Shown here: one piece after another, positions 35,698-52,419 of the stretch
Numbering within the stretch: position 1 is the stretch's first letter
How the letters are laid out: every line of letters begins with the position of its first letter
DNA from: Luteibaculum oceani
GTDB taxonomy: Bacteria; Bacteroidota; Bacteroidia; Flavobacteriales_D; Luteibaculaceae
Assembly (NCBI RefSeq): GCF_007995015.1
Contig: NZ_VORB01000011.1
Location: 57,394-121,393 of the forward strand
Direction of reading: 5' to 3'
DNA length: 64,000 nt
The notes under the pieces: generated by a model
The model's input: the letters and a program-made list of their open reading frames with translations, nothing else
The model's database searches: none
What the model was told of the DNA's origin: nothing
Made by a program: the position numbers and the translations under genes

Positions 35698-35719
35698 TCT
35701 GTTAGCTTTGTGTGCCATC

Positions 35720-37165
35720 ATGCACACCCTCGACCTAATAATTTTCATATTCTATTTTCTTGCCATGCTTGCTTTTGGAGCTTTTTTTATGCGCTCCAGC
35801 AAAGCTAAAGATGACTACTACGTCGGTGGGCGGAGTATGGGGAGATGGCATATCGGCTTGTCGGTAGTGGCTACCGATGTAGGAGGTGGATTTAGCATAG
35901 GATTAGGAGGATTAGGTTTTTTGATAGGCTTATCAGGCTCCTGGATGTTGTTTACGGGATTAATCGGAGCTATTCTAAGTGGAGTTTACCTCGTTCCAAA
36001 GGTTTACCAGCTATCTGCCCAGCACAAGTTTCTAACCTTTCCTCAGCTTTTTAAATTCTTATACAATGGAAAAGTGGCCATGGTGGCTGCAGTAATTTCT
36101 GCCATTGGATATTGGGGGTTTACATCCAGTCAAATTCTGGCTGGTGCTAAATTAGCTTCAGGTACCTTCGATATTCTTTCATTGGATCAAGCCCTTTGGC
36201 TAATGGGAGGCGTTGCCGTGGTGTATACCGTAATGGGCGGATTAAAGGCGGTGATTTATACCGATACCGTTCAGTGGATACTGCTACTTGCCGGGTTAAT
36301 TTTCATTGGAATACCACTTTCAATAGATTTCATTGGTGGTTGGGATCGATTGTATTCTGAATTAGATCCTTCCACCATGCGGTTGGATAATGTAAGCTGG
36401 TCGCAACTAATTAATTGGGCCATTACTATTATCCCGATTTGGTTTGTTGGTATGACATTATACCAAAGGATTTATGCAAGTAAATCTGCCCAAGAGGCCA
36501 AGAAGGCATGGTTTATAGCAGGGTTTTTCGAATGGCCGGTAATGGCTTTTTTGGGCACTTTGCTGGGGGTGATTGCCAAAGTTGCTTGGCTAGAAAATCA
36601 AATAGAACTTCCTTTGTTAGAGAGCGGACAGCCCGATGCCGAAACAGGATTGCCGGTATTACTTAAGACCGTTTTTCCCGTTGGACTATTGGGTTTGATT
36701 ATGTCGGCTTATTTCTCTGCTATTATGTCAACCGCCGATTCTTGTTTAATGGCTGCTTCTGGTAATATCGTTTCCGATTTGATAGAACCTAACAAAAAAG
36801 GTGGTGGCGATTTATCTATGGTATGGAATCGTGCTATTACCTTTTTGGTAGGTGGAACTGCGATGGTTTTTGCAGGATTTATGACCAATGTTTTAGATCT
36901 AATGCTACTATCTTATGCCTTTATGGTTAGTGGTTTGTTAGTTCCATTATTGGGTGGTTTTTTTGGAAAGAATCATCATCCAAACGCCGCTATAGGAGCT
37001 ATGATAGGGGGAGGAGTATGTACGCTGGCATTGGAGATTTCTGGGGTATCAATGCCCTACGATCTAGATCCTAATTTGTTTGGACTTACCACCTCATTAG
37101 TAATTTTTTACGCTATTTCTACATATTTTAAGCGACATGGATATAAGCATAATTACACGGGATAG
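35720..37165 (+). CDS. Sodium:solute symporter (SSS family)
   Basis: From the ATG at 35720 it is 481 residues with thirteen or so membrane helices in the LeuT-fold. Typical features are DDYYVGGRSMGRWHIGLSVVAT at helix 1/loop, a glycine-rich helix (DVGGGFSIGLGGLGFLIGL), and MSAYFSAIMSTADSCLMAASGN near sodium-site residues. It imports a small solute, perhaps an amino acid or derivative, with sodium. The next gene overlaps its end by 29 nt. As the first of a five-gene operon it likely brings in substrate for the hydrolase and racemases. Confidence 0.88.
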   Translation: MHTLDLIIFIFYFLAMLAFGAFFMRSSKAKDDYYVGGRSMGRWHIGLSVVATDVGGGFSIGLGGLGFLIGLSGSWMLFTGLIGAILSGVYLVPKVYQLSAQHKFLTFPQLFKFLYNGKVAMVAAVISAIGYWGFTSSQILAGAKLASGTFDILSLDQALWLMGGVAVVYTVMGGLKAVIYTDTVQWILLLAGLIFIGIPLSIDFIGGWDRLYSELDPSTMRLDNVSWSQLINWAITIIPIWFVGMTLYQRIYASKSAQEAKKAWFIAGFFEWPVMAFLGTLLGVIAKVAWLENQIELPLLESGQPDAETGLPVLLKTVFPVGLLGLIMSAYFSAIMSTADSCLMAASGNIVSDLIEPNKKGGGDLSMVWNRAITFLVGGTAMVFAGFMTNVLDLMLLSYAFMVSGLLVPLLGGFFGKNHHPNAAIGAMIGGGVCTLALEISGVSMPYDLDPNLFGLTTSLVIFYAISTYFKRHGYKHNYTG

Positions 37166-37574
37166 CGGAGCACATCCCGTTTTTGATAGAGAGACAATTT
37201 GCTCCTTTTTACACAAACATTTAGAAGAATATGGCGATCCGGTGGATCAAATAAAAATGTGTTATGATTTTGCTCTAAAATCCGGAATTGGTGGTTTTGT
37301 AACCCTAGCACACGATGAGCATAATAAACTCGCAGGAGTAGTAATAATGAACGAAACTGGAATGGGCGGATATATCCCAGAAAATATATTGGTCTACATT
37401 GCCGTAGATAAAGCTTTTAGAGGGCAAGGAGTAGGAAAAAAGCTAATGAAGGCAGCTTGCGACCATGCTAAGGGAGCGGTTGCACTACATGTAGAACCAG
37501 ATAACCCTGCAAGGCATTTGTATGAAAAGTTAGGTTTTACCAGCAAGTACCTAGAAATGAGGTTACAAAAATGA
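37137..37574 (+). CDS. GNAT-family acetyltransferase
   Basis: This 145-residue single GNAT domain has the acetyl-CoA-binding loop VAVDKAFRGQGVGKKLMKAAC (Q/R-x-x-G-x-G/A is GQGVGK) and the final strand HVEPDNPARHLYEKLGFT, the standard N-acetyltransferase ending. It acetylates an amine. It overlaps the symporter gene by 29 nt and the M20 hydrolase gene by 4 nt, so it is part of the operon. The substrate may be an amino acid, perhaps the one handled by the neighbouring amidohydrolase. Confidence 0.85.
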   Translation: MDISIITRDSGAHPVFDRETICSFLHKHLEEYGDPVDQIKMCYDFALKSGIGGFVTLAHDEHNKLAGVVIMNETGMGGYIPENILVYIAVDKAFRGQGVGKKLMKAACDHAKGAVALHVEPDNPARHLYEKLGFTSKYLEMRLQK

Positions 37575-38701
37575 TTGGTGAACAACAATTAGTAGAATTA
37601 CGGCGGCACTTGCATCAAAACCCAGAAACTGCTTTTCAGGAAAAGGGAACACAAAAAAAGGTTATTGAAGTACTAGAAGGGTTTAATCCGGTAAAAATTT
37701 GGAAAGTTGCAGGTACGGGAATTTTAGTACAGTGCACGGGAGATATAGGTGCTGCAGGTCATTTGTATAGAACCGATTTTGATGCGCTTCCCATCCAAGA
37801 AGATAACCCAGATCTTTCTTACCAATCAGTTAACAAAGGAGTAGCCCACCTTTGTGGCCACGATGGACATACCGCAATTGCTGTTGGGCTATGCTCTAGT
37901 GTTATTTCAAACGGGATCAACGAGCCGATATACGTGCTTTTTCAACCTGCGGAAGAAACGGGAATGGGGATGTTGGAAGTGCTCAAAGATGAAACCTTTA
38001 ATTCCATTGAGTTTAAAAGTGCAACAGCCATTCATAATTTACCCAGCTTCGAATTAGGGACCATCTTAACCAATCACAACACTTTTTCTGCCGCAGTTTC
38101 TACCCTTGTTTTTCGGTTTAAAGGGTTGTGTTCTCATGCTGCAGAACCCTGGAATGGTAAAAACCCTAATGCAGCCATTTCTAAGTTAAGTAGTTGGTTA
38201 GACGATAATAACGTGTTCCCAAAACCTAATGACTTTGCATTCGGAACAGTTGTTTGTGTTCGAGTTGGAGATACCGCTTATGGTACCAACCCAGGAAACG
38301 GAGAGATTCACATAACCATTCGCGCGGCAAATAACCAGTTATTCGAATCGTTTAAAAACGCCCTTAAGCAAAAGGCGGAGGAATTGGCTAGGGAGGAGGA
38401 TCTAGATATTACCTGCGAAGAATTGGAAATTTTTCCTGCAACTGGAGCCCACGAAGTTTTGTTAACCCAATTGGAAAGTCAAGCCCAACACATTGATTTA
38501 AAAATGTCTAGATTGCCGGGTCCCAACACTTGGGGAGAAGATTTTGGGTATTTGTCCCCGCTTTTTCCAACCTTAATGTTTGGAGTAGGGTCTGGAAAGA
38601 ATCAAAAGCCCTTGCATAATCCGGGATATAACTTTCCTGATGAGATTATTTATCCCACAATAAAACTACTTACCAACTACTTTAAAGAGCTTCATGTTTA
38701 A
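37571..38701 (+). CDS. M20-family amidohydrolase
   Basis: This 376-residue zinc amidohydrolase has the start LRRHLHQNPETAFQEKGTQ, metal-binding HLCGHDGHTA, PAEETGMG, AIHN, and late SHAAEP and GEDFGY. The layout fits the IAA-amino acid/N-acyl-amino acid amidohydrolase group, which removes an acyl group from amino acids. It lies between an acetyltransferase and two racemases, suggesting metabolism of an N-acyl amino acid. It overlaps alr by 8 nt. Confidence 0.9.
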   Translation: MIGEQQLVELRRHLHQNPETAFQEKGTQKKVIEVLEGFNPVKIWKVAGTGILVQCTGDIGAAGHLYRTDFDALPIQEDNPDLSYQSVNKGVAHLCGHDGHTAIAVGLCSSVISNGINEPIYVLFQPAEETGMGMLEVLKDETFNSIEFKSATAIHNLPSFELGTILTNHNTFSAAVSTLVFRFKGLCSHAAEPWNGKNPNAAISKLSSWLDDNNVFPKPNDFAFGTVVCVRVGDTAYGTNPGNGEIHITIRAANNQLFESFKNALKQKAEELAREEDLDITCEELEIFPATGAHEVLLTQLESQAQHIDLKMSRLPGPNTWGEDFGYLSPLFPTLMFGVGSGKNQKPLHNPGYNFPDEIIYPTIKLLTNYFKELHV

Positions 38702-39845
38702 TTCCACCTATATAGAACTGAGCCAAACGGCCTTGGCGAATAACATTTCTTTCTTAAGAAAGCAATTGAAAGGAAATGCCAGATTGAGCTTTGTGGCAAA
38801 GGGAAATGCATATGGCCATGGAATTAAGCCTATAGTTAGTATGGCTGAAAAGGCCGGGGTAGATCATTTTTCGGTTTATTCTGCCGAAGAGGCGGAGCAG
38901 GTATATGCCGCAAGTAAAGCCCATCCGACTGTTCTTGTAATGGGATATCTAAGTGATGCAGCGGTAGAATGGGCCATAGAAAAAGGAGTTGAGTTTTTCG
39001 TTTTTGAGTTTAAAAGGCTAGAAAAAGCTGTGCAAATAGCCAAGCGTTTAAATATTCCTGCTAAAATTCATTTAGAGTTGGAAACGGGGATGAATAGAAC
39101 CGGATTTCAAGTTGAAGAATTGCCACAGGTGGTTGAATTTGTTAAAAAAAATGCAGGGTATATAGAACTAGTAGGATGTTGTACGCATTTCGCAGGCGCT
39201 GAATCAATAAGCAATTATCTCCGAATTCAAAAACAGAAGAGGGCTTTTAAAAAGTATCTGAAATACTTGCAACAACAAGATTTACAATTTGAGCAAATAC
39301 ATGCTTGCTGTTCCGCTGCGGCCTTTAGATATCCAGATATGCATTTCGATTTGGTTCGATTTGGCATTATGAATTACGGGTATTGGCCCAGTGAAGAGAT
39401 TTTTATCGAGTACAGCTCAAAAAAGAAAAAGTTGGGGCAAGACCCATTAAAGCGAGTGATTTCATGGAAATCCTCTGTAATGTCCCTCAAAAAAGTAGAA
39501 AAAGGAGATTTCATTGGCTATGGTACCTCATACCAGGCTAGTGAAAACATCGAAATTGCATTGGTCCCCGTGGGCTATGGTTACGGATATTCTCGAAACC
39601 TTTCTAACACCGGTAGGGTACTTATTAATGGAAAACGGGCTGGTGTGATAGGAATAGTAAATATGAATTGCATAGCCGTAAACATTAACAACCTAGAAAC
39701 CGTAAAGATAGGAGATGAAGTAACTTTGATAGGTGGCGAAGGAGACCAACAGATCTCCGTGGCTTCGTTTAGTAAATTTTCAGATCAATTAAATTACGAA
39801 CTATTAACGCGTTTACCTCATAACATACCTCGTTTAATTAAGTAA
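38694..39845 (+). CDS. alr: Alanine racemase
   Basis: This 383-residue fold-type III PLP enzyme has the PLP lysine in LSFVAKGNAYGHGIKP and the later catalytic Tyr region IGYGTSYQASENI, plus VGYGYGYSRNLSNTGRVL. It interconverts L- and D-alanine for peptidoglycan, although a racemase of this class can have broader specificity. A 1-nt gap separates it from the second racemase. A cell normally needs only one alr; whether another copy exists elsewhere is unknown. Confidence 0.92.
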   Translation: MFNSTYIELSQTALANNISFLRKQLKGNARLSFVAKGNAYGHGIKPIVSMAEKAGVDHFSVYSAEEAEQVYAASKAHPTVLVMGYLSDAAVEWAIEKGVEFFVFEFKRLEKAVQIAKRLNIPAKIHLELETGMNRTGFQVEELPQVVEFVKKNAGYIELVGCCTHFAGAESISNYLRIQKQKRAFKKYLKYLQQQDLQFEQIHACCSAAAFRYPDMHFDLVRFGIMNYGYWPSEEIFIEYSSKKKKLGQDPLKRVISWKSSVMSLKKVEKGDFIGYGTSYQASENIEIALVPVGYGYGYSRNLSNTGRVLINGKRAGVIGIVNMNCIAVNINNLETVKIGDEVTLIGGEGDQQISVASFSKFSDQLNYELLTRLPHNIPRLIK

Positions 39846-39846
39846 C

Positions 39847-40917
39847 ATGGCCTACGTAACCCTAGACTCAAAAAAGTTAGAAGAGAATTATAAGTTTCTC
39901 GACCAGAAATTCAAGGAGCGCAATATTTCATGGGCTCCAGTTACCAAGTTGTTATGTGGTAATACCTTGTTGATGAAGGAAGTCCTGAAACACAAGCCAA
40001 AAGAGGTTTGTGATGCACGCCTTAGTAATTTGGTATTGGTAAAAGAGTTAGACCCCTCCATTGAAACCGTATATATTAAGCCTCCCGCCAAAGAAATCAT
40101 AGAAGATGTAGTTCGCTATGCGGACGCCAGTTTAAACTCCTCATACACTACCATTAAAGAGATAAGCAAGGAAGCTAAAAAGCAGGGCAAGACGCATCAT
40201 ATTATTATAATGATAGAGCTCGGGGATCTGCGCGAAGGAATTATGGGAGAACGACTTTTGGACTTTTATTCAAAGGTGTTCGAATTGCCGCATATTAAAG
40301 TAACTGGATTGGGAGCGAATTTAAATTGTTTGTATGGGGTAATGCCTTCAGAGGATAAGCTTATTCAGTTGTCTTTATACAAACAGCTCTTAGAAGCGAA
40401 ATTTAATGTGGAAATTCCATGGGTAACTGGAGGGACATCTGTTGTAATGCCCTTACTTATGAATAATCGCCTTCCTAAGGGGATTAACCATTTTAGGGTG
40501 GGAGAGACCCTTTATTTTGGAGCTGATTTAGTGGGCGGGACCACTTTTGAGGGAATGCACAACGATGTATTTAAATTGTACGCTCAGGTAATTGAAATTA
40601 CTGAAAAACCTAAGGTGCCCATAGGGAACATGGAGGCCAATCCCTCAGGCGAAACCTATGAAATTGATGAGAGTGAATATGGGTTAACTGCAGAGCGTAT
40701 GATTTTGGATGTAGGACTGCTTGACCTTTCTACTGACTTTGTAAAGCCTGTCGAAAAGGGTTTGACAATCTCAGGAGCTTCGTCCGATATGTTGGTTATA
40801 GAACTAGGGGACGAGGCAAAAAAATATAAAGTGGGCGATTTTGTAGAGTTTGAAATGAAGTACATGGGTGCTCTTCGTCTGTTTAACTCCGATTATATCG
40901 AAAAGCGAGTTATTTAG
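39847..40917 (+). CDS. PLP racemase, alanine/ornithine racemase family
   Basis: This 356-residue fold-type III enzyme is diverged from alanine racemases. PLP lysine is in WAPVTKLLCGN, and GLGANLNCLYGVMPS and GETLYFGADLVGGT are typical of the ornithine-racemase/YhfX-like group. It probably racemises a larger basic or other amino acid, for instance ornithine, but specificity cannot be read off. It directly follows alr. Its stop overlaps the convergent DUF1648-like gene by 4 nt. Confidence 0.82.
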   Translation: MAYVTLDSKKLEENYKFLDQKFKERNISWAPVTKLLCGNTLLMKEVLKHKPKEVCDARLSNLVLVKELDPSIETVYIKPPAKEIIEDVVRYADASLNSSYTTIKEISKEAKKQGKTHHIIIMIELGDLREGIMGERLLDFYSKVFELPHIKVTGLGANLNCLYGVMPSEDKLIQLSLYKQLLEAKFNVEIPWVTGGTSVVMPLLMNNRLPKGINHFRVGETLYFGADLVGGTTFEGMHNDVFKLYAQVIEITEKPKVPIGNMEANPSGETYEIDESEYGLTAERMILDVGLLDLSTDFVKPVEKGLTISGASSDMLVIELGDEAKKYKVGDFVEFEMKYMGALRLFNSDYIEKRVI

Positions 40918-41528: not shown

Positions 41529-42044
41529 ATGTCATTATTGGATGAGGTGTTGGCGGTTGCACCAGAGTACTACCACCGTTATATAAGATTAATAGGGAAG
41601 AAGGACCCTGTTGTAGTAATGGAAGAACAAAGCGAAGCCCTTGATGAATTGTTGGGTGGAGTGGCTCCCAATGAATACACCACCTCATACGCCGAAGGAA
41701 AATGGTCGATAAAGGAGGTTGTAGGACATATCAATGATGTAGAAAGGATATTTGGATATCGCGCAATGGCATTTAGTCGCGGTGAAGAAAAGGAGCTTCC
41801 AGGTTTTGAGCAGGATGATTATGTGGCTAATGCCCCATTTAATGATGTAGCTATGGAGGAATTGCTCGAAGAGTTTTACCATTTACGCCAAGCTAACCTA
41901 CACATGTTTAAAAACCTTTCCCAATCTCAATGGAATAACATGGGTAAAGCAAGTGGTGTAAAAATTGGTGTACAAGCAATATGCTATATAATGGCCGGTC
42001 ATGTAATGCACCACATGAACGTGTTAGAAAGCAAGTACTTATAA
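41529..42044 (+). CDS. DinB-like metalloprotein
   Basis: This 171-residue protein is a four-helix DinB/YfiT-like fold. It has the three-histidine metal site pattern: His in VVGHINDVERIF, and HVMHHMNVL at the C terminus. Such proteins include thiol-transferases and putative damage-response enzymes; the activity is unknown here. The pgs operon starts 28 nt after it, but a promoter box lies between, so co-transcription is not certain. Confidence 0.85.
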   Translation: MSLLDEVLAVAPEYYHRYIRLIGKKDPVVVMEEQSEALDELLGGVAPNEYTTSYAEGKWSIKEVVGHINDVERIFGYRAMAFSRGEEKELPGFEQDDYVANAPFNDVAMEELLEEFYHLRQANLHMFKNLSQSQWNNMGKASGVKIGVQAICYIMAGHVMHHMNVLESKYL

Positions 42045-42049
42045 AATAT

Positions 42050-42057
42050 TAGATTTG
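42050..42057 (+). promoter_or_regulatory. Candidate promoter of the pgs operon
   Basis: TAGATTTG at 42050-42057 matches the TAnnTTTG -7 box, 15 nt before the pgsB ATG at 42073. It would give an 8-9 nt leader. The -33 region (around 42023-42030) is only weakly TTG-like. It suggests the pgs genes are a separate unit from the DinB gene. Confidence 0.5.
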
Positions 42058-42072
42058 CAGCCATCTTAAAGT

Positions 42073-43242
42073 ATGGTGAATCTAATTTTTATTGTTTTAA
42101 TTACCGTAAGCCTCTTGGTTTACGGGGTACTTGAGTACCAAAGACACCAATTTTATCTTAGAAAAATTCCAATTAGAATTCATGTAAATGGAACCAGAGG
42201 GAAGTCCAGTGTTACTAGATTGGTGGGAGCGGGGTTACGAGCAGGAGGCCTCAAGACCCTGACAAAAGTTACTGGAACTTTTCCGAGGTTAGTTTCAAGT
42301 GATGGTACTGAAGTAGCTATCCATCGTAAAGCAGGTGCAAATATTCTTGAACAGTTAGATATAGTAAAGTACTGTGCAAAAAATAATTACGATGTATTAT
42401 TGATAGAATGTATGGCGTTACAGCCCATTTATCAAAAAATTACCGAACATCAGATGATTAAAGCGACCCACGGGGTTATTACCAATATTAGGTTGGATCA
42501 TTTGGATGTTATGGGACCTAGATTGGAAAATGTTGCTGAGGCCATTTCAAATACGGTACCAAAAAACTCAAAACTTTATACTGCAGAAGATAGGTTTGGA
42601 GGTTTGTTAACTGAAAAAAGTAAGAAAAGGAATTCTGAGATTTATTTCTCCGATTTGGGGCAAGTTAGCCAGCAGGATATGAAAGGCTTTACCTACTTAG
42701 AGCATGCGTCCAATGTGGCACTGGCTTTGGACATTTGTGAAGACCTAGGGGTGGATAAAACCGTCGCCTTGGAGGCTATGAAAAAGAGTGTTCCCGATGA
42801 AGGTGTTTTGCGTAAATATGAAATCGATGTTTCACAAAAGAAGATAGTCTATTATAATGGTTTAGCCGCAAACGATATTGAGTCTAGTATAATGATTTGG
42901 AAGAATATAAGTTCAATTGAAGATTTTGATGCTGGTTATTTGTTATTGAACGGAAGAAAAGACAGAAAAGACAGGACAATATCCCTTTTATCTGGATTTT
43001 CTAGTGTAGCGCTTGATGGACTTATTATTTGTGGAGATAATGTTGAATTGTCCCGGTCTATAGCCTTAAAACATGGGTTTTTAGAGGATAAAGTTCATGT
43101 TATTTCTTCCTATGATCCAGAAGTTAGGTTTAATCAAATCATGGAATTTATTGCATCGAATTCAATGATATTTTCAGTAGGTAATATGGGAGCAGGTGGT
43201 GCAGAAATGTCTGAATATTTTGCTCAAAAAAGAACGCTATGA
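42073..43242 (+). CDS. pgsB: Poly-gamma-glutamate synthase PgsB/CapB
   Basis: This 389-residue amide ligase adds glutamate by ATP-dependent gamma-linkage. It has an N-terminal membrane anchor (LIFIVLITVSLLVYGVLEY) and a Mur-ligase-like P-loop (HVNGTRGKSSVTRLVGAGLRAGG), then ECMALQPIYQ and TNIRLDHLDVMGP, matching PgsB/CapB. The length is normal. It overlaps pgsC by 4 nt (ATGA). PgsB and PgsC form the synthetic core. The polymer may be gamma-linked glutamate or a close analogue; composition cannot be read from the sequence. Confidence 0.92.
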   Translation: MVNLIFIVLITVSLLVYGVLEYQRHQFYLRKIPIRIHVNGTRGKSSVTRLVGAGLRAGGLKTLTKVTGTFPRLVSSDGTEVAIHRKAGANILEQLDIVKYCAKNNYDVLLIECMALQPIYQKITEHQMIKATHGVITNIRLDHLDVMGPRLENVAEAISNTVPKNSKLYTAEDRFGGLLTEKSKKRNSEIYFSDLGQVSQQDMKGFTYLEHASNVALALDICEDLGVDKTVALEAMKKSVPDEGVLRKYEIDVSQKKIVYYNGLAANDIESSIMIWKNISSIEDFDAGYLLLNGRKDRKDRTISLLSGFSSVALDGLIICGDNVELSRSIALKHGFLEDKVHVISSYDPEVRFNQIMEFIASNSMIFSVGNMGAGGAEMSEYFAQKRTL

Positions 43243-43697
43243 TAGAATTAGCAGTAACGATTGGTATAGCCTTGTCATTATTCTTTTTGGAGTCTTTTGG
43301 AATGGCTGCAGGTGGAATTATAGTTCCCGGATATGTGGCACTTCAATTAGGAACTCCAGACCGATTAGTTGGGTTGGTGTTGGTTGCCTTAATTACATTT
43401 TTTGTTTTGAAGCTAATTGGAAAATTTACGTTTTTATTTGGTCGAAGGCAGATGGTGATTGCGCTTTTAGTAGGAACAATATTTTCCATGGTTTCACATC
43501 ATTTTATGTTCATAAATGGCCAAAATACAACGCTAGAGTTCTCAGCAGTAGGGTGGGTTGTACCAGGCTTAGTGGCACACTGGTCTCTTAAACAAGGGTT
43601 CGTTAAAACAATTTCAATGCTAATTATTATCTCCTCCATTGCTAGATTATTAGTGATCCTTTGTATGGGAGGTGAAATTATTCCAAACCTCTATTAG
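43239..43697 (+). CDS. pgsC: Poly-gamma-glutamate synthesis protein PgsC/CapC
   Basis: This 152-residue hydrophobic protein has about five membrane helices and opens with FFLESFGMAAGGIIVPGYVALQ, the PgsC/CapC signature. PgsC is the membrane partner of PgsB and both are needed for polymerisation. The normal length and the overlap with pgsB support the assignment. The following gene starts after a 7-nt gap. Confidence 0.92.
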   Translation: MIELAVTIGIALSLFFLESFGMAAGGIIVPGYVALQLGTPDRLVGLVLVALITFFVLKLIGKFTFLFGRRQMVIALLVGTIFSMVSHHFMFINGQNTTLEFSAVGWVVPGLVAHWSLKQGFVKTISMLIIISSIARLLVILCMGGEIIPNLY

Positions 43698-43704
43698 ACG
43701 TATC

Positions 43705-44820
43705 ATGCGAAACATCTCCATTAGGTCTACATGGGTCCTACTTGTGTTAGCTCTTATATCAATTATGGCTATTTTCTTGGTTGAAAAGACTCAGCAACTA
43801 ACCAAACAAGAGTTTTACGAGGAAAAACTAGCCGCAGCAGAGCTCAACTTAAAATATCAGCAATACCTTAAGCAAAAGAATTTTCTAAATGAAATTTCAA
43901 TTGACAATATTAACGATCCTAATGGCACTCGGCTAATTGGAACCAGATATTCCGAAATAACTTCTGGAAGAGGATCCTTACCAATTAAACTAAGTACCAC
44001 TAATCCAAATTTTGCAGCTCTAATTATTGAGCTATTAAAAGAAAGTGGTGTTGAAAAAGGAGATCACGTAGCAGTTTGTGCAACAGGTTCGTTTCCTGCT
44101 ATTAACATTGCTTATCTAGCGGCATCCGAGGTCTTGGGGTTAAAAACTACCTTTATAAGTTCGGTTACCTCATCCTCTTGGGGGGCAAATGACCCCAATT
44201 ATACCTATTTAGATATGCATAACCACCTGTACCAAGCAGGCTTGGTGTCATTTCAGGTTGTTGGTGCTTCAATTGGTGCTAATCAAGATATAGGTCGAAC
44301 ATTAACTCCGTCGGGTAGGGAGGCGGCAATTATAGCAATAGAAAGAAATAATATTCCATTAATCAACGGTACGTCGTTGAGAGATAATGTTTTAAAAAGA
44401 ATTGAAATTATAAAGGACAACGAAAATAAATTTGAAAAGGAAATCTCGTTGTTTATAAATATAGGGGGAGGAGTAGCAAGCCTAGGTAGCAGTGATAATC
44501 ATGACAACATCCCATCTGGATTAGTTCTTGACCCAAAATTGAATCAATTTAAAGATAGAACAGGGGTGCTTTTCGAAATGGTTGCACTAAAGGGTGTCCC
44601 TTTCATAAACTTTTTGAATATCAACCGGATAATGGATAAATATGGCCTCCCCAAGGATCCGGTTCCGCTTCCCAATCCTGGAGAGGGCGAATTATTTGAA
44701 CATTTGGAATACAATCTAAATCTTGTAATTGGTCTTACCTTGTTGCTTATCGTTTTTATAACAGCAATCATACTTTACGACAACCACCAAAATAAATTAG
44801 GGCAAAATGTTATTAAATAA
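43705..44820 (+). CDS. pgsW: Poly-gamma-glutamate system protein PgsW-like
   Basis: From the ATG at 43705 it is 371 residues; GTG 43672 would overlap pgsC. It has an N-terminal and a C-terminal membrane helix (TWVLLVLALISIMAIFLV and LVIGLTLLLIVFITAIILYD) around a soluble domain with GDHVAVCATGSFPAINIAYL and TSSSWGANDPNYTYLDMHNHLY. This matches the PgsW-type 'poly-gamma-glutamate system protein' found with pgsB and pgsC in Fusobacteria and Spirochaetes. It replaces PgsA here. Its biochemical role is not known to me. It overlaps the next gene by 14 nt. Confidence 0.85.
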   Translation: MRNISIRSTWVLLVLALISIMAIFLVEKTQQLTKQEFYEEKLAAAELNLKYQQYLKQKNFLNEISIDNINDPNGTRLIGTRYSEITSGRGSLPIKLSTTNPNFAALIIELLKESGVEKGDHVAVCATGSFPAINIAYLAASEVLGLKTTFISSVTSSSWGANDPNYTYLDMHNHLYQAGLVSFQVVGASIGANQDIGRTLTPSGREAAIIAIERNNIPLINGTSLRDNVLKRIEIIKDNENKFEKEISLFINIGGGVASLGSSDNHDNIPSGLVLDPKLNQFKDRTGVLFEMVALKGVPFINFLNINRIMDKYGLPKDPVPLPNPGEGELFEHLEYNLNLVIGLTLLLIVFITAIILYDNHQNKLGQNVIK

Positions 44821-45712
44821 CAGAGTATTAATACTTAGTCTGGGGCTAATTTTCAGCATTTTCTGCAATGCTCAAAAGAAAGTGGATTTAAATCCCGTAA
44901 AAGAGGTTAGTAAAGTAACCTTAAAAGGAAAATACGAGCATAAGTATTATGCACTTTCTTCAAAATCATCCACAATTTATAAGGTCAACGGACCAGGAGT
45001 AATAAGCCTAAATGTAAGGGTAAGAGTAGAGGAGGGGCTAAAATCAGAACCATTTAAAATAAAGGTAATTAAGAATAATAAACATATCGACATATATGAG
45101 GTACCTGCACTTACAGTTGGGAATCTGAAATTTAAAAGTCAGAAGTTGCCAGGAGCGCCTACCAAGTATTATCGTTTGGATATCCCAGTGGAACCTGGAA
45201 AAAACACCTATAAAATTTATAAATATCAGCCCGAGCCTCGTGTGTACGTCAAAGCATATTATACTCCATTTTCGAAACCACAGTGGAAGGATTTAAAATC
45301 AAAAAAAGTTCTCGCTTCATCAAATATTCAATTTACTAAATCAGGTAGGGTAAGTAACTATTATGAGCTAAATAGAAAAACAAATCAATTCCTGTTTAAT
45401 TTTAACGGCAGTGATTATTTAAGGATCATAGTAAGACCAAAATTTTCTTACTCCATGTTGGATGAAATTTTGGTGAAATTGAAACTAACCAATCTCAACA
45501 CGGGAGAAGAAAAAATATACCGGATAAACTCCAAACGTACTTCTTCAGCAATTTTTGTAAATGACAAAAAAAATGCCGTAGGGGTTTCCAGTACCCTTTA
45601 CCTTGAAATGAAGCCTGAAGATGTGGGGTCTACTTTTAAGTTGGAGTTAATTTCTGGCTGTAAAAAAGCAGCTGTAAAAGTCTCTGAAAATGTGAAAGGG
45701 ATTAAAAGATGA
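44807..45712 (+). CDS. Secreted protein of the pgs operon, unknown
   Basis: This 301-residue protein has a signal peptide (RVLILSLGLIFSIFCNAQ, cleavage after AQ) and no other membrane helix, so it is periplasmic or exported. It is strongly basic (many KK) with beta-rich sequence in two similar halves, such as SKSSTIYKVNGPGVISLNVRV and SDYLRIIVRPKFSYSM, suggesting duplicated sandwich domains. The basic surface could bind a polyanionic polymer. It overlaps pgsW by 14 nt and the next barrel gene by 4 nt, placing it within the machine. I know no named family. Confidence 0.75.
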   Translation: MLLNNRVLILSLGLIFSIFCNAQKKVDLNPVKEVSKVTLKGKYEHKYYALSSKSSTIYKVNGPGVISLNVRVRVEEGLKSEPFKIKVIKNNKHIDIYEVPALTVGNLKFKSQKLPGAPTKYYRLDIPVEPGKNTYKIYKYQPEPRVYVKAYYTPFSKPQWKDLKSKKVLASSNIQFTKSGRVSNYYELNRKTNQFLFNFNGSDYLRIIVRPKFSYSMLDEILVKLKLTNLNTGEEKIYRINSKRTSSAIFVNDKKNAVGVSSTLYLEMKPEDVGSTFKLELISGCKKAAVKVSENVKGIKR

Positions 45713-46488
45713 AGCTCATAAAATTAGTCTTTATTCTAATCAGTTTTCTGTTTTTAGACCCCCTTTTTGGACAGGATAATTCGAGGTCACAAAACACTTA
45801 TTGGAATACCGTTCTTCTTTCAAAAAAGCTAAACAATAGGTTTAGTGCCAGTAATCTAAATATATATAGCATAAGAGCTTCTACGAATAAAAAATGGTTC
45901 AATTACCATGATTTTTCTGTGGCCTATAAACTAGATCGGTTCTGGTCTGTTTCAATGGGAATAGCAATATCTAGTTATAAATTATCTTCTGGTGGGAATA
46001 AAAATTTTGTTACCCAAACAGCAATGATTTCTCGATCCTTTAGACTTGGAAAAATAGGCTTGTTAACCAGGGTGATTGCTCAAAATAACAATCCCAAATT
46101 TTCAAGGTATCAACAACGATTTCAGTTGGTAATTAGGTCTTATTACCGAAAGGGAAATCTCCCTTTAAAAATTAAGCCCTATATGCAGACGGCTCTTTAT
46201 TATTATTTAAATGGCAAAGAGAGAACGTACTACGATGATAACTTTCAAGCAATTGGAAAGAAATCACCAGATGGAATACATCGAATTAGGTTTAAGGCTG
46301 GATTTATGTTAAATCCGATAAGAAATCTTAATCCTTTGAAAGTCGGAATGTACATTGCTAGAAATGTGGAATTCAATTTGCCATGGGGCAATGAATTAAA
46401 CTTTCCGAGAAATAGTTCTGGAACAAGAATTTCATTACCCTTCAATAACTATAATTTAATTGGGTTACAGGTAAATTACAGCCTCTAG
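45709..46488 (+). CDS. Outer-membrane barrel protein of the pgs operon (DUF2490-like)
   Basis: This 259-residue protein has a signal peptide (KLVFILISFLFLDPLFG) and an amphipathic beta pattern throughout, ending in an aromatic strand (NNYNLIGLQVNYSL). The start WNTVLLSKKLNNRFSASNLNIYS and the overall size resemble DUF2490 barrels. It overlaps the basic secreted protein by 4 nt and is the last gene of the operon. An outer-membrane channel for the polymer is a reasonable inference, but no direct evidence exists. Barrel prediction would settle the fold. Confidence 0.75.
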   Translation: MKLIKLVFILISFLFLDPLFGQDNSRSQNTYWNTVLLSKKLNNRFSASNLNIYSIRASTNKKWFNYHDFSVAYKLDRFWSVSMGIAISSYKLSSGGNKNFVTQTAMISRSFRLGKIGLLTRVIAQNNNPKFSRYQQRFQLVIRSYYRKGNLPLKIKPYMQTALYYYLNGKERTYYDDNFQAIGKKSPDGIHRIRFKAGFMLNPIRNLNPLKVGMYIARNVEFNLPWGNELNFPRNSSGTRISLPFNNYNLIGLQVNYSL

Positions 46489-46519: not shown

Positions 46520-47491
46520 CTAAAGCGCAGCGGTAATCAACTCCACCTTGTTTTCCTTTGCTGGCAATGACTTTAAGTATGCATATATTGCTCTTAAATC
46601 ATTGGTGTCCATATGGGCATACATAAGCCATGGCATTACAGTTTGAAATTCCCCTGCTTTTACTTTTGGTGGTACATAGCTACTATCGGTGTATTGCCTA
46701 AATCTGCTTATAAATTGTTCTTCGCTCCAGGCTCCAATTCCAGTTTCGTGTGGAGTTATATTGGCTGAACGCAAAATGCTTCCATCGGGAAAGTGAAATT
46801 CCATGCCTCCCGCAAAATCCTCTCCAATGAATTCACCTTTTTCTTGCTTGGTATGGCAGTCATAGCATGCTGCAGCGTTAACCAAGTACTCTCCATAGGC
46901 AATTAAGTTTTCCTGACTGGGTCTTTTGCTGGGAGTAGCCTTTTTTGGTAAGGTGTTAATGATGAAATTCATCGGAAAATCAGGTTCGGATTTTTCAGGT
47001 TGGTAATCTACCGGATCTAACGTTCGGATGTATGCGATAACCGACTTAATGTCTTCGGGGTCCATTTTACCGTAATGGTGATAAGGCATTAAATTGAAAA
47101 GCGCTCTACCGTCTTTCGATATTCCCGTGGTAATAGCCCGGTAAATTTCCCCATCGGTCCATTTTCCCAATCCGGCAGGGGTAATGTTTGGGGAAACAAA
47201 TTTCCCTGGAAACCCCATCATCTGATCAAAGCGTTCTCCTCCAGCACCCATAGAACCTTTAACGGGGGGAGCTGCAAAAGTGGTCCAATCGCGTTGGGCA
47301 TGGCAATCCATACATAACATTACGTGATTGGCTAAATATTTTCCCCTTTCAATATTTTGTGGTGTAAGCTCTACGGTTATTTCTGGTGCTTGCTCTGCTT
47401 TAGGCAAAAATACCTTGAGATAAACCAGAAATCCACCTACAAAAATCAAAAGAATGGCAATAAGAAAAAGGAAAAAGCGAAGCACTTTCAT
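46520..47491 (-). CDS. Di-haem c-type cytochrome
   Basis: This 323-residue protein has an N-terminal membrane anchor (LRFFLFLIAILLIFVGGFLVYL) and two CXXCH haem sites, C60-C63-H64 (CMDCH) and C209-C212-H213 (CYDCH), in two similar cytochrome domains each followed by a GxWT/WS-type GxxD pattern and PNITP/ANITP methionine-side stretch. The domain pair resembles the cytochrome subunits of alcohol/gluconate dehydrogenases. Electron partner unknown. It stands alone. Confidence 0.88.
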   Translation of the reverse strand: MKVLRFFLFLIAILLIFVGGFLVYLKVFLPKAEQAPEITVELTPQNIERGKYLANHVMLCMDCHAQRDWTTFAAPPVKGSMGAGGERFDQMMGFPGKFVSPNITPAGLGKWTDGEIYRAITTGISKDGRALFNLMPYHHYGKMDPEDIKSVIAYIRTLDPVDYQPEKSEPDFPMNFIINTLPKKATPSKRPSQENLIAYGEYLVNAAACYDCHTKQEKGEFIGEDFAGGMEFHFPDGSILRSANITPHETGIGAWSEEQFISRFRQYTDSSYVPPKVKAGEFQTVMPWLMYAHMDTNDLRAIYAYLKSLPAKENKVELITAAL

Positions 47492-47677: not shown

Positions 47678-48556
47678 TTAGTAAAGAAAACCTATCCGCA
47701 ATCCGGCGCTCAATGCTATTTTGGGGCTACCATCTGTAATTATAATACCTCCACGGTGGACCTCTCCCGTACCATAGGAGTAGTAATAACTGTCCTCATC
47801 CATTTCCGCCGATTCATCATACTTAGTGACAGCTCCATATCCTATCCCGACGAAATAGTCAATTAAAAAACTATCTGAGTACACCACCTGTTTTCCTAGG
47901 TTAACCATAAATGCGGCACCCAACGTTTTGTAGCTATAACCCTGTTCGGAGGATGTCAAAGTAGCGTGGTCGTACTGATATGCCTTTCCAGAGTGGTTTA
48001 ACGAACTAATTACCAATTCTGGCTTGATGTACGCTCCCTTTAAAATATGGGAGTATTTCATTCCAGCTAGATAGAAATCTGGGCTTTTAAGTAGCTTATA
48101 TCCAAAGCGAGCATTAAATCCTGTGGTTTCTTCGTCTGAACTGCCAAAAATTTCGGTTGTACCAAAGTTAAATCCCAAATTAACCTCCATAGATTTACCA
48201 GGTTCTATGCTTTTCTCGTAAGAAACTTCCCAGTAGTTGGTCAGTGGGGTTAAAAAGTTAAACTTGATAGCACGCTTATTTTGTTGACTGTAGTTCTCTT
48301 GATTGTTGAGGTTTTCCTGTAAAACCACATTTTTACCATTGGCGGTAACCACTCGTGAGCAAGCCGAATAATTAATGGTAAAGGCCAAGTCAGGGTTAAG
48401 TTCTGGTCTGGTGTATTTAATTATATCATTTCCAATTTCCACCAACTTACATGGTATTACCTCTCCAGTAAATTTGAAAATGGTATCCTTTTGACCAAAA
48501 ACTAAATTGGACAAACCTATGATCAGGGTTAAAGTGAAAATTTTGCCGGCCTTCAT
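47678..48556 (-). CDS. Outer-membrane barrel protein, paralogue E
   Basis: This 292-residue protein is the last of five related genes. It has a signal peptide (KIFTLTLIIGLSNLVFGQ), an N-terminal domain of about 80 residues (DTIFKFTGEVIPCKLVEIGNDIIKYTRPE), then a barrel (about 100-292) ending in SAGLRIGFLY. It is closest in pattern to paralogue A, both with TPLTNYWEVSYEKS- or TPVFATLEVSYEKN-like strands. Function unknown; the N domain also occurs with barrels elsewhere in Bacteroidota. Confidence 0.78.
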   Translation of the reverse strand: MKAGKIFTLTLIIGLSNLVFGQKDTIFKFTGEVIPCKLVEIGNDIIKYTRPELNPDLAFTINYSACSRVVTANGKNVVLQENLNNQENYSQQNKRAIKFNFLTPLTNYWEVSYEKSIEPGKSMEVNLGFNFGTTEIFGSSDEETTGFNARFGYKLLKSPDFYLAGMKYSHILKGAYIKPELVISSLNHSGKAYQYDHATLTSSEQGYSYKTLGAAFMVNLGKQVVYSDSFLIDYFVGIGYGAVTKYDESAEMDEDSYYYSYGTGEVHRGGIIITDGSPKIALSAGLRIGFLY

Positions 48557-48586
48557 AATTATTTGAATTGAATTTTTGATGTAGAA

Positions 48587-49759
48587 TTAGAAGCTAAAAC
48601 CAAATTTCACACCACCAGAAGCAGTTGGTACTACAGGTAGTTCTTCATTTCTAAATCCTTCTGTGTAAACAAATTTAGAACCTCTAATGTCGTCCTGTGA
48701 GCCGTAATTCGGTTCGCTGTTCGGGTTGTCGCTGTCGTAGCTTTCTATTAAATATCCCGCTCCAATTCCAAGGAAAATCTCGAATTGGAAACGAGGTGTA
48801 AAATCCCACTTTCTACCAATGTGTAATGCTAAACCTGCAATTTGCTGTTCGTACGTTGCAGAGTAAGTGCTGGTGGTTCCTCCACCCAAAATTCCACCTT
48901 CTTCCTGGGTAACACCATCATCTGTTTTCACATAGGTTAGGTAAAACAATTCGGGTTTAAAGTAGGTGTTACCGGTTCTACCTTGTCCTTTGGATTTATT
49001 ATAAAGCTTAAAGCCCAAACCGTAGTTTCTAAGTTCAATATCATTGGTTGATTTGGTACCATAGGTTAGTTCTAAACCAAAATGTTGAGAAAAAACACGC
49101 TCATAAGTTAATTCTAGAATTCCTGTTCCCAGGTTTACGAGGTTGTACTGCAATTTATTTCCTGGGACTTTGTGGGGATAGAAAAATCGCGGTCTTCCTT
49201 TTTCATCTTTTGAGGGCTTTGTTTCCTTCTTTTCGGCCTTGGGTGTTTTAACAGGCTTACTTTTAGCAGTTTCCTCTTGGTTTACGGCTTCTTCTTTAGT
49301 TTTGGGCTCCTCTTTTTCTGAAGGCTTAACGGTTTCTTGTTTCTCTTCCACTTTTTCCACTTTTGCAGTCTCCTGATTACCAGGTTCACTGTTAACCGTA
49401 GCTTCCTTAGGGGTAAAAAGTTTCCAAGTTTTTTTCTCTTTAGGTGCTTTCGCTTTCTTGGGTTCTTTTGAAGATTTAGCTAAAGATGATGATTTTGTTT
49501 TTTTGGTTTTCTTGTTGCCTTTGTTCTTGATGTACTCACGCTCACCGTATGATGCTCTTACAAGGTAACTTACCTTTTCTTTGTCGATACTAAAGGTTAC
49601 ATTTTCTCCAAAACCGAAGTTTTGGTAAACAATTTCTTGACCCTTTGTTGAGGTGATTTTTACCACAAGTTTTTCCCCGTTTTTAAGGGCTAGCGTGTCG
49701 GATTGTGAATACCCTAATACAGTGAAAAGGGTGAAAATTACTGCGTAAATCGATTTCAT
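48587..49759 (-). CDS. Outer-membrane barrel protein with Lys/Glu-rich linker, paralogue D
   Basis: This 390-residue protein has the same plan as its neighbours: signal peptide (AVIFTLFTVLGYSQ), N domain (SDTLALKNGEKLVVKITSTK) and C-terminal barrel from about residue 200. It is about 100 residues longer because of a low-complexity linker (about 80-190) full of K, E, P and T, in short repeats such as KKTKKTKSSS and EEKQETVKPSEK. The linker suits a periplasmic tether or peptidoglycan-crossing segment. The barrel ends GGVKFGFSF. Function unknown. Confidence 0.78.
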   Translation of the reverse strand: MKSIYAVIFTLFTVLGYSQSDTLALKNGEKLVVKITSTKGQEIVYQNFGFGENVTFSIDKEKVSYLVRASYGEREYIKNKGNKKTKKTKSSSLAKSSKEPKKAKAPKEKKTWKLFTPKEATVNSEPGNQETAKVEKVEEKQETVKPSEKEEPKTKEEAVNQEETAKSKPVKTPKAEKKETKPSKDEKGRPRFFYPHKVPGNKLQYNLVNLGTGILELTYERVFSQHFGLELTYGTKSTNDIELRNYGLGFKLYNKSKGQGRTGNTYFKPELFYLTYVKTDDGVTQEEGGILGGGTTSTYSATYEQQIAGLALHIGRKWDFTPRFQFEIFLGIGAGYLIESYDSDNPNSEPNYGSQDDIRGSKFVYTEGFRNEELPVVPTASGGVKFGFSF

Positions 49760-49777
49760 ATTTGGTAGTTATTGGGG

Positions 49778-50611
49778 TTAAAAGACGATTCCAACTCGAA
49801 TGGAACCATGATAAATGTTTGACCAGTTTTCAATTTTATCGTCCAATTGCTCAAAGAAGAACATTCTTTGTTCGTCTGGATTTTTGTAGTTTTTAATATT
49901 AGGATTTTGCAAGGTTTCTCTATCATTTTCACTTAGACGGTCTCCGAAATTGGTGGAAGAATAGCTAAGTCCACTACCTAGGTTTAGTTCAATAAAACCT
50001 CTTCCTAGAACTACCCATTGGTAGCCGAAGTTTAACATAGGGCCCACTCCAAAGTATTTGTGCTCTTTACCATTCTCGAACTTTAAAGTGTGCTTATAAA
50101 AGATGGCCGTTGGTTTAACATAGGGCCCACAGGCTAAATAATCTCGTTGGTATTTATTGTACAATCTAAACTTGTATCCAAAGGCTCCCAGATGAAAGCT
50201 TTCACTATTTTGTAAGTTGAAAAAGAGATTAAAATCGATACTTGAAATTTTGTCTGTGGCCATTTCAAAACCTAATTCTCCATAGTTTAGGAAGCCAGTT
50301 GCAGGAAATAACTTGATTGCATATTTCCTATCAGGATATCGGAATTTTAGATTTTCATTACTGTTTCCAAGCTGGTAATTGATCCAAACTTCACCGTCGT
50401 GAAATTTAATCATCCTAATTTTTGACTTGCTCACATTGAATTTCACATCGGGAGAAAGCGTTGGCTTAGAATAAACCACTTCATCCGAATTCATTTTTTC
50501 AACCACACAAATGGATATGTTGTCATCTGCGAAGTAAATGGTATCGCTCTGTGCATGTGTAATCTTACAAAGAAGTAAAGCAAGAATTATAAAAAGGGTA
50601 GGAGTTTTCAT
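49778..50611 (-). CDS. Outer-membrane barrel protein, paralogue C
   Basis: From the ATG at 50611 it is 277 residues; the longer frame runs into the upstream gene. The signal peptide is KTPTLFIILALLLCKITHAQ. The N domain has SDTIYFADDNISICVVEKMN and SPDVKFNVSKSKIRMIKFHDG. The barrel ends SIRVGIVF. It is closest to paralogue B, which also contains the phrase KFALKFIPGNFGQFGEFGVE where this one has KYAIKLFPATGFLNYGELGFE. Function unknown. Confidence 0.78.
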   Translation of the reverse strand: MKTPTLFIILALLLCKITHAQSDTIYFADDNISICVVEKMNSDEVVYSKPTLSPDVKFNVSKSKIRMIKFHDGEVWINYQLGNSNENLKFRYPDRKYAIKLFPATGFLNYGELGFEMATDKISSIDFNLFFNLQNSESFHLGAFGYKFRLYNKYQRDYLACGPYVKPTAIFYKHTLKFENGKEHKYFGVGPMLNFGYQWVVLGRGFIELNLGSGLSYSSTNFGDRLSENDRETLQNPNIKNYKNPDEQRMFFFEQLDDKIENWSNIYHGSIRVGIVF

Positions 50612-50636
50612 TATTAGAGCATTTGATTGGGGTGGG

Positions 50637-51509
50637 TTAGAATATTGCACCAATTTTGAAAGAAACATTGGCTAGATCTGCGATATTCGGAATACCTTTT
50701 TTATGTTGGAAAAATCTATAGGTGTTATTTCGGTATCTATTGTTACCCCAACCACTTCTTTCTTCATCTTCCCCTTCTTCATCCAAAGTGATAAAATCCC
50801 CTCCTGGATTGTTGGGGTCTCTTTTATTGTGGGCAGAGTTTAAAAGGTACGCAAGGCCATATCCTGCGGAAACTTCAATAAATCCCCTTCCTTTTACAAT
50901 CCATTGATATCCTCCATGCAAAATAAGACCAGCACTATTTGCTAATTTTTCCTCTTGCTCACCAAGATGTTCGTAATAATCATGGTAAAATATAGATGGT
51001 TTTAAAAAGGGACCGCTTGCCATAAACTGGCGGTTGTATTTATTCCTACCCCTCCATTTATAACCAATTGAAACCAATTTAAAATATCTGTCCCTTCCCC
51101 AGCCATAATTGTATTGGTAGGCGTACATCAAATCCACGGATTGTTTTGTACCAACAGCATATTCGACTCCGAACTCCCCAAATTGACCAAAATTGCCTGG
51201 GATAAATTTTAAGGCAAACTTTCTTGGTGGGTACAAAGTAGCATACCCGGTGGTATCTGGTTTAACAAGGATTGCCGCATCATTTTCCCACGCGTTCCCA
51301 TTTTTAAAGGTGATGGAAACAACTTTCCAAGTGGGAATTTTAAAGATGACCTCTTCCGATAATGAAGGATTTACATATACAATTTGTTTGGGTTCTATTC
51401 TTTGAACCTTGCATGCAATTTTATCCCTATTCCTCAGAAGAAGAGTATCTAGCTGGGCTTCGGCACCAAGGGTGCAAAAAATTAGGAGTAAAATGGCAAG
51501 GTATCTCAT
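50637..51509 (-). CDS. Outer-membrane barrel protein, paralogue B
   Basis: This 290-residue protein has a signal peptide (YLAILLLIFCTLGAEAQ), an N domain (LDTLLLRNRDKIACKVQRIE) and a barrel ending SFKIGAIF. It has an acidic loop near the end (TLDEEGEDEERSGW). The gap from the upstream stop is 17 nt, so it is co-transcribed. Function unknown; the N domain has a conserved Cys and a pattern V-F-K or I-F-K before a charged strand, as in the others. Confidence 0.78.
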   Translation of the reverse strand: MRYLAILLLIFCTLGAEAQLDTLLLRNRDKIACKVQRIEPKQIVYVNPSLSEEVIFKIPTWKVVSITFKNGNAWENDAAILVKPDTTGYATLYPPRKFALKFIPGNFGQFGEFGVEYAVGTKQSVDLMYAYQYNYGWGRDRYFKLVSIGYKWRGRNKYNRQFMASGPFLKPSIFYHDYYEHLGEQEEKLANSAGLILHGGYQWIVKGRGFIEVSAGYGLAYLLNSAHNKRDPNNPGGDFITLDEEGEDEERSGWGNNRYRNNTYRFFQHKKGIPNIADLANVSFKIGAIF

Positions 51510-51526
51510 GGTAGGTTGGATTTGGG

Positions 51527-52363
51527 TTAAAGGAGTATTCCTATTCTTATTCCTGCCGAAAAAGCAAGATGAGGAAAGTCTACAAACATTCCGTATCCAC
51601 CTCTAAAGCTATAGGATAAATCATTGCCTCTTTTATCGTAGGCTTTATCGCTGGTAAATCCGTAGCCAATTCCCATATAGACATCTACTAACAAGGAGTT
51701 GGAGTAAACGAATTGGTTTCCAAAATTGATCATTATCGCCCCTGCAGAACTCGAAACTTCATCGTCTCTTACGCTAGGGGTATCACTCATTCTATCTTTT
51801 CCTTCCATATCTACCATTCCCGATAAATAAGAATAAGATATTTCTGGTTTGATGTAGGTTCCCTTTAAAATGTGTGCATACTTATCTTCACCTATGTATG
51901 TATGCGGATCCTTTAAAAATTTATAGCCCAATCTAAAGTTATACCCGCTATATACTTCCTCTAGCATGTTGGTGCCTTTGTAAGCGAAAACAAACTCGAT
52001 CGATTTACCTAAATCGAGATTTTTTTCATAGGAAACTTCAAGGGTGGCAAATACCGGTGTGGCGAAGTTTAATTTAATTGCAGAACCTTTCTGTCTTTCC
52101 AAAGACAGGTTTTTGTTTTTCGCGTTTCCCCTATTTGGAATCAAAACCTTTCCATTTTCAAATACCACTTTCGACACCTTGTTTAAGGAAATTTTGAAAT
52201 CAAGGTCTTCTCTAATCTCAGGGCGCTGATATTGGATGGATTTATCTCCAATATGCTTTACACTGCAAATAATACTTTCGGAGCTTACGGTGAAAATCGT
52301 GTCTTTTTGGCCAAAGGCTAGTGCAGATAGAGTTAGGCAGAAAAGGGTACTAATTAACTTCAT
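51527..52363 (-). CDS. Outer-membrane barrel protein, paralogue A (first of operon)
   Basis: From the ATG at 52363 it is 278 residues; the longer frame at 52390 runs into the promoter. The signal peptide is LISTLFCLTLSALAFGQ. The N domain is KDTIFTVSSESIICSVKHIGDKSIQYQRP. The barrel ends SAGIRIGILL. It is the first gene of five on one transcript. The promoter with an inverted repeat lies directly upstream. Together the five carry 30-40 percent-looking similarity by eye, so the array grew by duplication. Function unknown. Confidence 0.8.
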   Translation of the reverse strand: MKLISTLFCLTLSALAFGQKDTIFTVSSESIICSVKHIGDKSIQYQRPEIREDLDFKISLNKVSKVVFENGKVLIPNRGNAKNKNLSLERQKGSAIKLNFATPVFATLEVSYEKNLDLGKSIEFVFAYKGTNMLEEVYSGYNFRLGYKFLKDPHTYIGEDKYAHILKGTYIKPEISYSYLSGMVDMEGKDRMSDTPSVRDDEVSSSAGAIMINFGNQFVYSNSLLVDVYMGIGYGFTSDKAYDKRGNDLSYSFRGGYGMFVDFPHLAFSAGIRIGILL

Positions 52364-52387
52364 TTTAACAGTGCTGATAATTTTCGA

Positions 52388-52419
52388 CAAATGATACTAA
52401 CTTTAGATAAGTTAGCAAA
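52388..52419 (-). promoter_or_regulatory. Promoter with inverted-repeat operator for the paralogue operon
   Basis: On the minus strand the -33 box TTTG (52416-52419) is followed by a 19-bp perfect inverted repeat, CTAACTT-5-AAGTTAG (52397-52415), then TATCATTTG (52388-52396), one base longer than the TAnnTTTG -7 box. The repeat exactly fills the spacer, which is where a repressor would block polymerase. The first gene starts at 52363. Confidence 0.6.

Follow-up and report, generated by a model that had tools for sequence, protein, structure and literature searches.

Five tightly packed genes at 42073-46488 of the window, by which we mean the whole stretch of 64,000 nucleotides from Luteibaculum oceani that was analysed, encode PgsB, PgsC and PgsW of a poly-gamma-glutamate (PGA) system, followed by two further proteins that are here called D and E. 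Based on gene neighbourhoods and predicted structures, it seems fairly probable, that is somewhat better than even, that a PGA synthase is coupled here to a dedicated periplasmic guide (D) and an outer-membrane pore (E). Observed directly is that D is a simple genomic marker of one clade of PgsW loci. Together D and E are two proteins with which one can address how PGA leaves a cell with two membranes.

Candela et al. (2009) reportedly described Fusobacterium nucleatum as the first Gram-negative PGA producer. PGA genes are reported in most of the phyla surveyed, many of them with an outer membrane, and in the available text the PGA model of a capsule survey includes no outer-membrane part (PMC5542703). 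Two Cloacimonadota papers name CapBC, one of them also 'transport', and mention no outer-membrane part in the portions available. In the open-access literature searched, mainly as titles and the beginnings of abstracts, no description of an outer-membrane component for PGA was found.

The synthase genes and their surroundings

The five open reading frames (ORFs) and their tight spacing, as given in the original prediction from the DNA alone, were reproduced to the nucleotide. All five genes lie on the plus strand. The first, pgsB (42073-43242, 389 amino acids), encodes the PGA synthase PgsB, a Mur-ligase-like amide ligase that scores 381.7 bits against TIGR04012 (NCBIfam, cut-off 222.7) and also matches Mur_ligase_M (Pfam). 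It overlaps by 4 nucleotides with pgsC (43239-43697, 152 amino acids), whose product is the PGA biosynthesis protein PgsC, a membrane protein with 113.6 bits against TIGR04011 (NCBIfam, cut-off 96.45) and 104.1 bits against Caps_synth_CapC (Pfam). Both proteins exceed the curated equivalog cut-offs for PGA synthase, and the whole genome holds one PgsB. The third gene, pgsW (43705-44820), begins 7 nucleotides after pgsC when counted from the ATG at 43705; an in-frame GTG at 43672 is a possible alternative start. Its product scores 290.3 bits against TIGR04332 (NCBIfam, cut-off 100), has hydrophobic stretches close to both ends and probably stands in the place of PgsA. The family title reads 'poly-gamma-glutamate system protein'; the name PgsW is that of the original prediction. 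D (44807-45712, 301 amino acids) overlaps pgsW by 14 nucleotides and is a basic protein with a signal-peptide-like N-terminus. E (45709-46488, 259 amino acids) overlaps D by 4 nucleotides. The gene run stops at E because the next gene, a convergent cytochrome-c-type gene at 46520-47491, lies on the opposite strand.

The absence of PgsA, claimed earlier for the operon, holds genome-wide: the PgsA/CapA domain PF09587 had zero matches across the genome of the window (G000, 99.93% complete), in a search that was positive for 7 of the 14 control genomes, including B. subtilis. Three relatives were searched in the same way; two had no match, and one (G528) has a single match far from its pgs locus. 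No credible sequence relatives in the PDB were found for D, E, PgsB or PgsW.

A candidate promoter before pgsB, also part of the original prediction, could not be upheld. The single TANNTTTG at 42050-42057 belongs to a motif with 58 occurrences in the window, fewer than the 78.8 expected from shuffles, and sigma-70-like sites were seen 17 times against 17.3 expected. Transcriptional read-through into pgsB is possible, because a DinB_2 gene (41529-42044) lies only 28 nucleotides upstream on the same strand.

Linkage of protein D to pgsW

A search with D as the only query matched 1 of 60 relatives, the genome itself, and 5 of 5.8 billion database proteins, D itself included. So few matches indicate that D diverges fast. 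D gave no row against Pfam at E 1 and only insignificant rows against NCBIfam; neither D nor E matched PHROGs significantly. Two D profiles were central to the following: A1, made from 18 copies, and the wider A6. Both were partly built from copies that they then find, and leave-out profiles were made as a control. Among the ORFs of the loci, these recovered the WOR-3 copy at 5e-17, the Latescibacterota copy at 1e-20 and the copies of L045-L050 at 9e-31 or better.

At the level of the order, TIGR04332 and A1 (E 0.001) each matched 8 of 399 genomes, 7 of them in common (G000, G174, G263, G335, G373, G382 and G396). The eighth match was weak in each search and was dropped (G144 for PgsW, 18.7 bits; G044 for D, 20.3 bits with one stop). 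Both searches covered 399 genomes whose handles agree where comparable, and the sets were taken as identical. At the level of the phylum, TIGR04332 was above its cut-off in 13 of 395 genomes, with D in 7 of these loci and without it in 6; G706, below the cut-off and with one stop, was dropped from this count. A6 at E 1e-5 found D in 7 of 335 genomes, and all 7 copies adjoin the pgsW of the same genome. D away from pgsW was found in neither of the two samples (399 genomes of the order, 335 of the phylum).

In total, 27 pgsW loci were read, namely the window, 14 and 12 others; a further stretch, L057, was without PgsW by the criterion used. D lies directly 3' of pgsW in 21 of the 27 loci, which are 21 of 21 in one PgsW clade, with gaps between -74 (from an upstream-extended ORF start) and 23 nucleotides. 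This position is kept across three phyla, down to 13-30% identity. The expectation that D remains linked to pgs genes in relatives was thus borne out. In one draft genome (L013:7503-8444) an in-frame stop interrupts D, which is intact in the near relatives L010, L012 and L014; this could be a sequencing error or a recent loss.

On the PgsW tree, one branch with a support of 100/100 separates the 21 loci with D from the 6 without (at L055 the contig ends 285 nucleotides past pgsW, so that the absence of D was seen at five of the six), and a single change suffices to explain the presence of D. The tree program warns of long branches, chiefly that of L056. According to record titles, the D side comprises Flavobacteriales, one Bacteroidales record, other members of the phylum, one WOR-3 and one Latescibacterota. 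For D elsewhere in the six genomes, the search extends as far as the phylum sample for the D profile drew them. Pairwise distances of PgsW and D correlate with rho 0.88 (20 loci), those of PgsB and D with 0.83, and those of PgsW and E with 0.76 (9 loci). These correlations point to joint descent rather than contact, because such a correlation arises in any case between genes inherited together in one genome.

The loci without D have features of their own. A gamma-glutamyltranspeptidase relative lies directly 5' of pgsB in 6 of 6 (L051-L056; the family was checked in L053 and the rest compared by BLASTP). Downstream lie genes for secreted-type proteins; of the four that were checked, those of L052 and L053 pass the cut-off for a type 9 secretion tail, and those of L051 and L054 fall below it.

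Charge and fold of protein D

D is predicted to be exported by a signal peptide. After trimming of 22 residues, the window copy has an isoelectric point (pI) of 9.9 and a net charge of +30, and all intact copies have a pI of 9.25-10.2 and a net charge of +8 to +40; the basic character first noticed in the window copy is therefore conserved. Net charge per 100 residues has a median of +9.1 over 20 D proteins and stands at +10.8 in window D. All 56 secreted-like background ORFs from these loci remain below both values, and the lowest D charge (+3.0) falls inside the background range. The trimming and the filter for secreted-like ORFs are crude home-made rules, and L013, with its broken frame, was excluded from both the distance and the charge-background tests.

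The structure model of D, with a predicted local distance difference test (pLDDT) score of 87.2, is all beta and consists of two tandem beta-sandwiches like those of carbohydrate-binding modules (CBMs). It thus has the CBM beta-sandwich fold, and no sequence match of D to a CBM family was found (Pfam, E 1). The D of the Bacteroidales record (L021:5466-6722) is longer, with 418 amino acids, and seems to have a third, N-terminal copy of the repeated beta domain.

A slot for barrel or barrel-like proteins linked to D

A barrel or barrel-like gene, from one of three families, is linked to D in 20 of the 20 loci that are readable past D; L011 was left out of this count, as its contig ends after D. 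The E family occupies the slot in nine loci (the window, L010, L012-L017 and L021), and its members first emerged from BLASTP comparisons with E, at values from 1e-17 to 4e-44. A second family is found in eight loci (L022, L023 and L045-L050). A profile of L022 and L023 alone recovered the slot proteins of L045-L050 at 2e-7 to 2e-29, and matches above the Pfam cut-off are OMP_b-brl in L022 and BBP2_2 in L050. The third family comprises L018-L020, which match one another and have no significant match to the other two.

Common ancestry of the short E barrels (profile A2) and the longer slot proteins (A3) was considered and not shown, with an hhalign probability of 0.8%. Neither could all longer slot proteins be kept as one set (A3), since separate profiles of L018-L020 and of L022/L023/L045-L050 lack significant cross-recognition. 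The PgsW tree places the third type within the E-type loci. Together with the missing profile similarity between E and the other types, this indicates that the slot is kept and its occupant changes. In L021, the E gene follows a lipoprotein gene on the upstream side of pgsB, and D stays downstream of pgsW.

Some loci carry additional genes around the slot. A lipoprotein-like gene of 234-239 amino acids adjoins E in six pgs loci (L010:6902-7606; L012:6462-7166; L013:6796-7500; L014:6523-7227; L015:10364-11077; L021:1090-1809), in five of them between D and E; it is CarboxypepD_reg-like in L010. The window locus itself has no such gene beside E, and a search of its genome with one protein query gave no match, an empty result that is uninformative for a search of this kind. 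In the WOR-3 and Latescibacterota loci (L022:11004-15621 and L023:4412-9044), two further genes follow the barrel; in L022 one of them codes for a lipoprotein-like protein with LVIVD repeats and the other for a C25 peptidase that carries a type 9 secretion tail.

Protein E and its relatives

E gave only sub-threshold rows against Pfam and NCBIfam. In the case of DUF2490 (cut-off 29.8), the window E scores 14.6 bits, the relative in L016 26.3 bits and that in L070, outside any pgs locus, 32.3 bits. The model of the window copy (pLDDT 80.0) has twelve strand regions, and its closest folds are the acidic-sugar porins KdgM and NanC and the amyloid exporter FapF. The predicted fold is thus the 12-strand barrel of KdgM porins; by sequence, no Pfam row for the KdgM family at E 1 and no PDB relative were found. 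The outward face is hydrophobic on average in 10 of the 12 strands. Inward-facing lysine and arginine outnumber aspartate and glutamate by 16 to 3 in the window copy and by 12.7 to 7.3 in the mean over 16 E sequences, the inward/outward split being based on hydrophobic alternation and not on coordinates. A basic residue stands at positions 143 and 196 in all nine pgs-linked copies versus 2 of 6 others.

The E profile A2 matched 14 of the 399 genomes of the order: six pgs genomes, six others and two weak cases (G034 and G293). In the seventh pgs genome, G373, which has no E match, the contig ends shortly after D. As regards the linkage of the last two genes to pgsBC, D and the barrel slot are kept, but E is not exclusive to pgs loci, as it has relatives elsewhere.

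Outside pgs loci, E relatives stand in a recurring setting. In five cases (L070:8574-13270; L071:2902-7559; L072:4315-8978; L073:4172-8835; L068:1090-5680) the E relative lies beside a shared protein of 318-356 amino acids, an MsbA-like ABC exporter and a beta-aspartyl-peptidase relative; the neighbour families were checked for L070, and the remaining loci were compared by BLASTP. L068 also has a lipoprotein relative beside E, and L069 has pairs of lipoprotein-like and E-like genes. Such loci may constitute a different export system, one whose product is acidic or isopeptide-bonded. As a lead only, the position of E beside an exporter would fit a role in outer-membrane exit.

Proposed mechanism and alternatives

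In the mechanism that we propose, PgsB and PgsC, whose families are known, would polymerise glutamate to gamma-glutamyl chains at the inner membrane, with PgsW taking the place of PgsA. D would meet the emerging polyanion in the periplasm and bind it, holding the chain by charge contacts. E, as a predicted 12-strand barrel with a mostly basic inner face, would then let the polymer through the outer membrane, and where a lineage has an unrelated protein in that slot, this may serve as the pore. We put forward more tentatively, at slightly under an even chance, that PgsBCW, basic tandem beta-sandwich guides (D) and a slot of unrelated barrels constitute the first dedicated envelope-spanning polyamide exporter in two-membrane bacteria. 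If the proposed mechanism is right, the match between the charge of a barrel interior and that of its polymer, as reported in the available text of PMC9603273, would extend to a polyamide.

Several observations weigh against this guide and pore. The second clade has pgsBCW without D (six loci, five of them readable downstream), which means that D is not required for every PgsW system. The Foldseek template modelling (TM) scores of D are low, at 0.2-0.3, and a CBM-like sandwich is a common fold. Regarding E, six genomes without pgsW carry relatives at 2e-32 or better, and the inner-face residues R137, R192 and R194 do not vary in six relatives outside pgs loci either. Inward acidic residues are nearly equal in number to basic ones in several E relatives, and KdgM and NanC, the closest porins, serve uptake. 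The barrel nature of the third slot type is weakly supported (OMP_b-brl sub-threshold in L020, no row for L018). The longer slot proteins have pI values from 4.8 to 10.1 and are not uniformly basic, which counts against a simple rule of charge in this group.

The original prediction left it open whether the two secreted proteins carry or anchor the polyanion. The linkage and charge of D agree with that prediction, but the exclusivity of E and the promoter do not, and carrying and anchoring are indistinguishable from these data. If D and the barrel held the finished polymer at the surface as a capsule, the chain would have to exit by another route, for which the single OPX gene of the genome (its one PF02563 match, on another contig) could serve; the binding-type fold of D is in line with such an anchor and its linkage fits equally well. 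We consider it unlikely, as the fold of E is that of small pores and secretion barrels, and the pgs loci showed no OPX gene.

It appears quite improbable that D and E are merely co-transcribed and have an envelope role unrelated to the polymer. The clade with pgsBCW and no D and the E relatives found elsewhere could be read in this way, yet D stays beside pgsW over the wide divergence described above and was not found elsewhere, and L021, with E and D on opposite sides of pgsBCW, argues against a single passenger block. Least probable in our estimation is an uptake function, where acidic oligomers would enter through E and be bound by D. Such a function is suggested by the best fold matches of E, since KdgM and NanC are specific diffusion channels for acidic sugars according to the available text of PMC4849052; however, D and E overlap a polymer synthase operon and not catabolic genes, and D co-occurs strongly with PgsW and was not found without it.

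Neighbouring genes

Upstream on the plus strand, genes for an SSF symporter, an acetyltransferase-like protein, an M20 peptidase and two alanine-racemase-fold proteins follow in a row (35708-40917); in the relatives read, nothing of this row stands near pgs genes. The SSF, M20 and racemase genes and the DinB_2 gene were considered as parts of the system and rejected, as BLASTP found none of them in the other 26 pgsW loci nor in L057. Downstream on the minus strand (47678-52390) lie five adjacent genes for similar-looking secreted proteins, a tandem family alike after the signal peptide, which may be barrels.

Comparison with known systems

The cluster resembles Bacillus PgsBCA(E)/CapBCA(E) in that its PgsB and PgsC pass the curated family cut-offs. 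It differs in that the genome has no PgsA domain, and has PgsW, D and a barrel instead; moreover, Bacillus has no outer membrane to cross.

In the guide and pore proposed above, the closest parallels are polysaccharide exporters. In the available parts of the respective papers, the M. xanthus exopolysaccharide (EPS) system EpsY/EpsX, a composite OPX/beta-barrel translocon as are the Wzp porins, is described as a periplasmic partner with an outer-membrane barrel translocon (PMC9601211), and barrel interiors are reported to be matched in charge to the polymer (PMC9603273). Here as there, a periplasmic partner and an outer-membrane barrel are encoded with synthesis genes. The OPX/beta-barrel translocons, however, are reported to have 18 strands and work with Wzx/Wzy, whereas the model of the window E has 12, with longer proteins in the slot at other loci, and the synthase is one for a polyamide. 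D as an OPX protein was rejected (no Poly_export/OPX match, no Pfam row at E 1). Likewise, the barrels of BcsB/BcsC, PgaA and AlgK/AlgE have 16-18 strands, against a predicted 12 in E, and show no sequence relation; the tetratricopeptide repeat (TPR) scaffold of synthase-dependent exporters was not found, as none of the five proteins matched a TPR family in Pfam and the D model is all beta. KdgM/NanC and FapF share a likeness of fold with E and no family sequence match, and E is set in a polymer synthase operon.

Altogether, D does not belong to the OPX proteins and the five proteins lack a TPR match, so the cluster is no member of these systems; it may work like them. The scheme would then be similar to synthase-dependent polysaccharide export without family membership, with D as the periplasmic polymer-binding part and E as the exit barrel.

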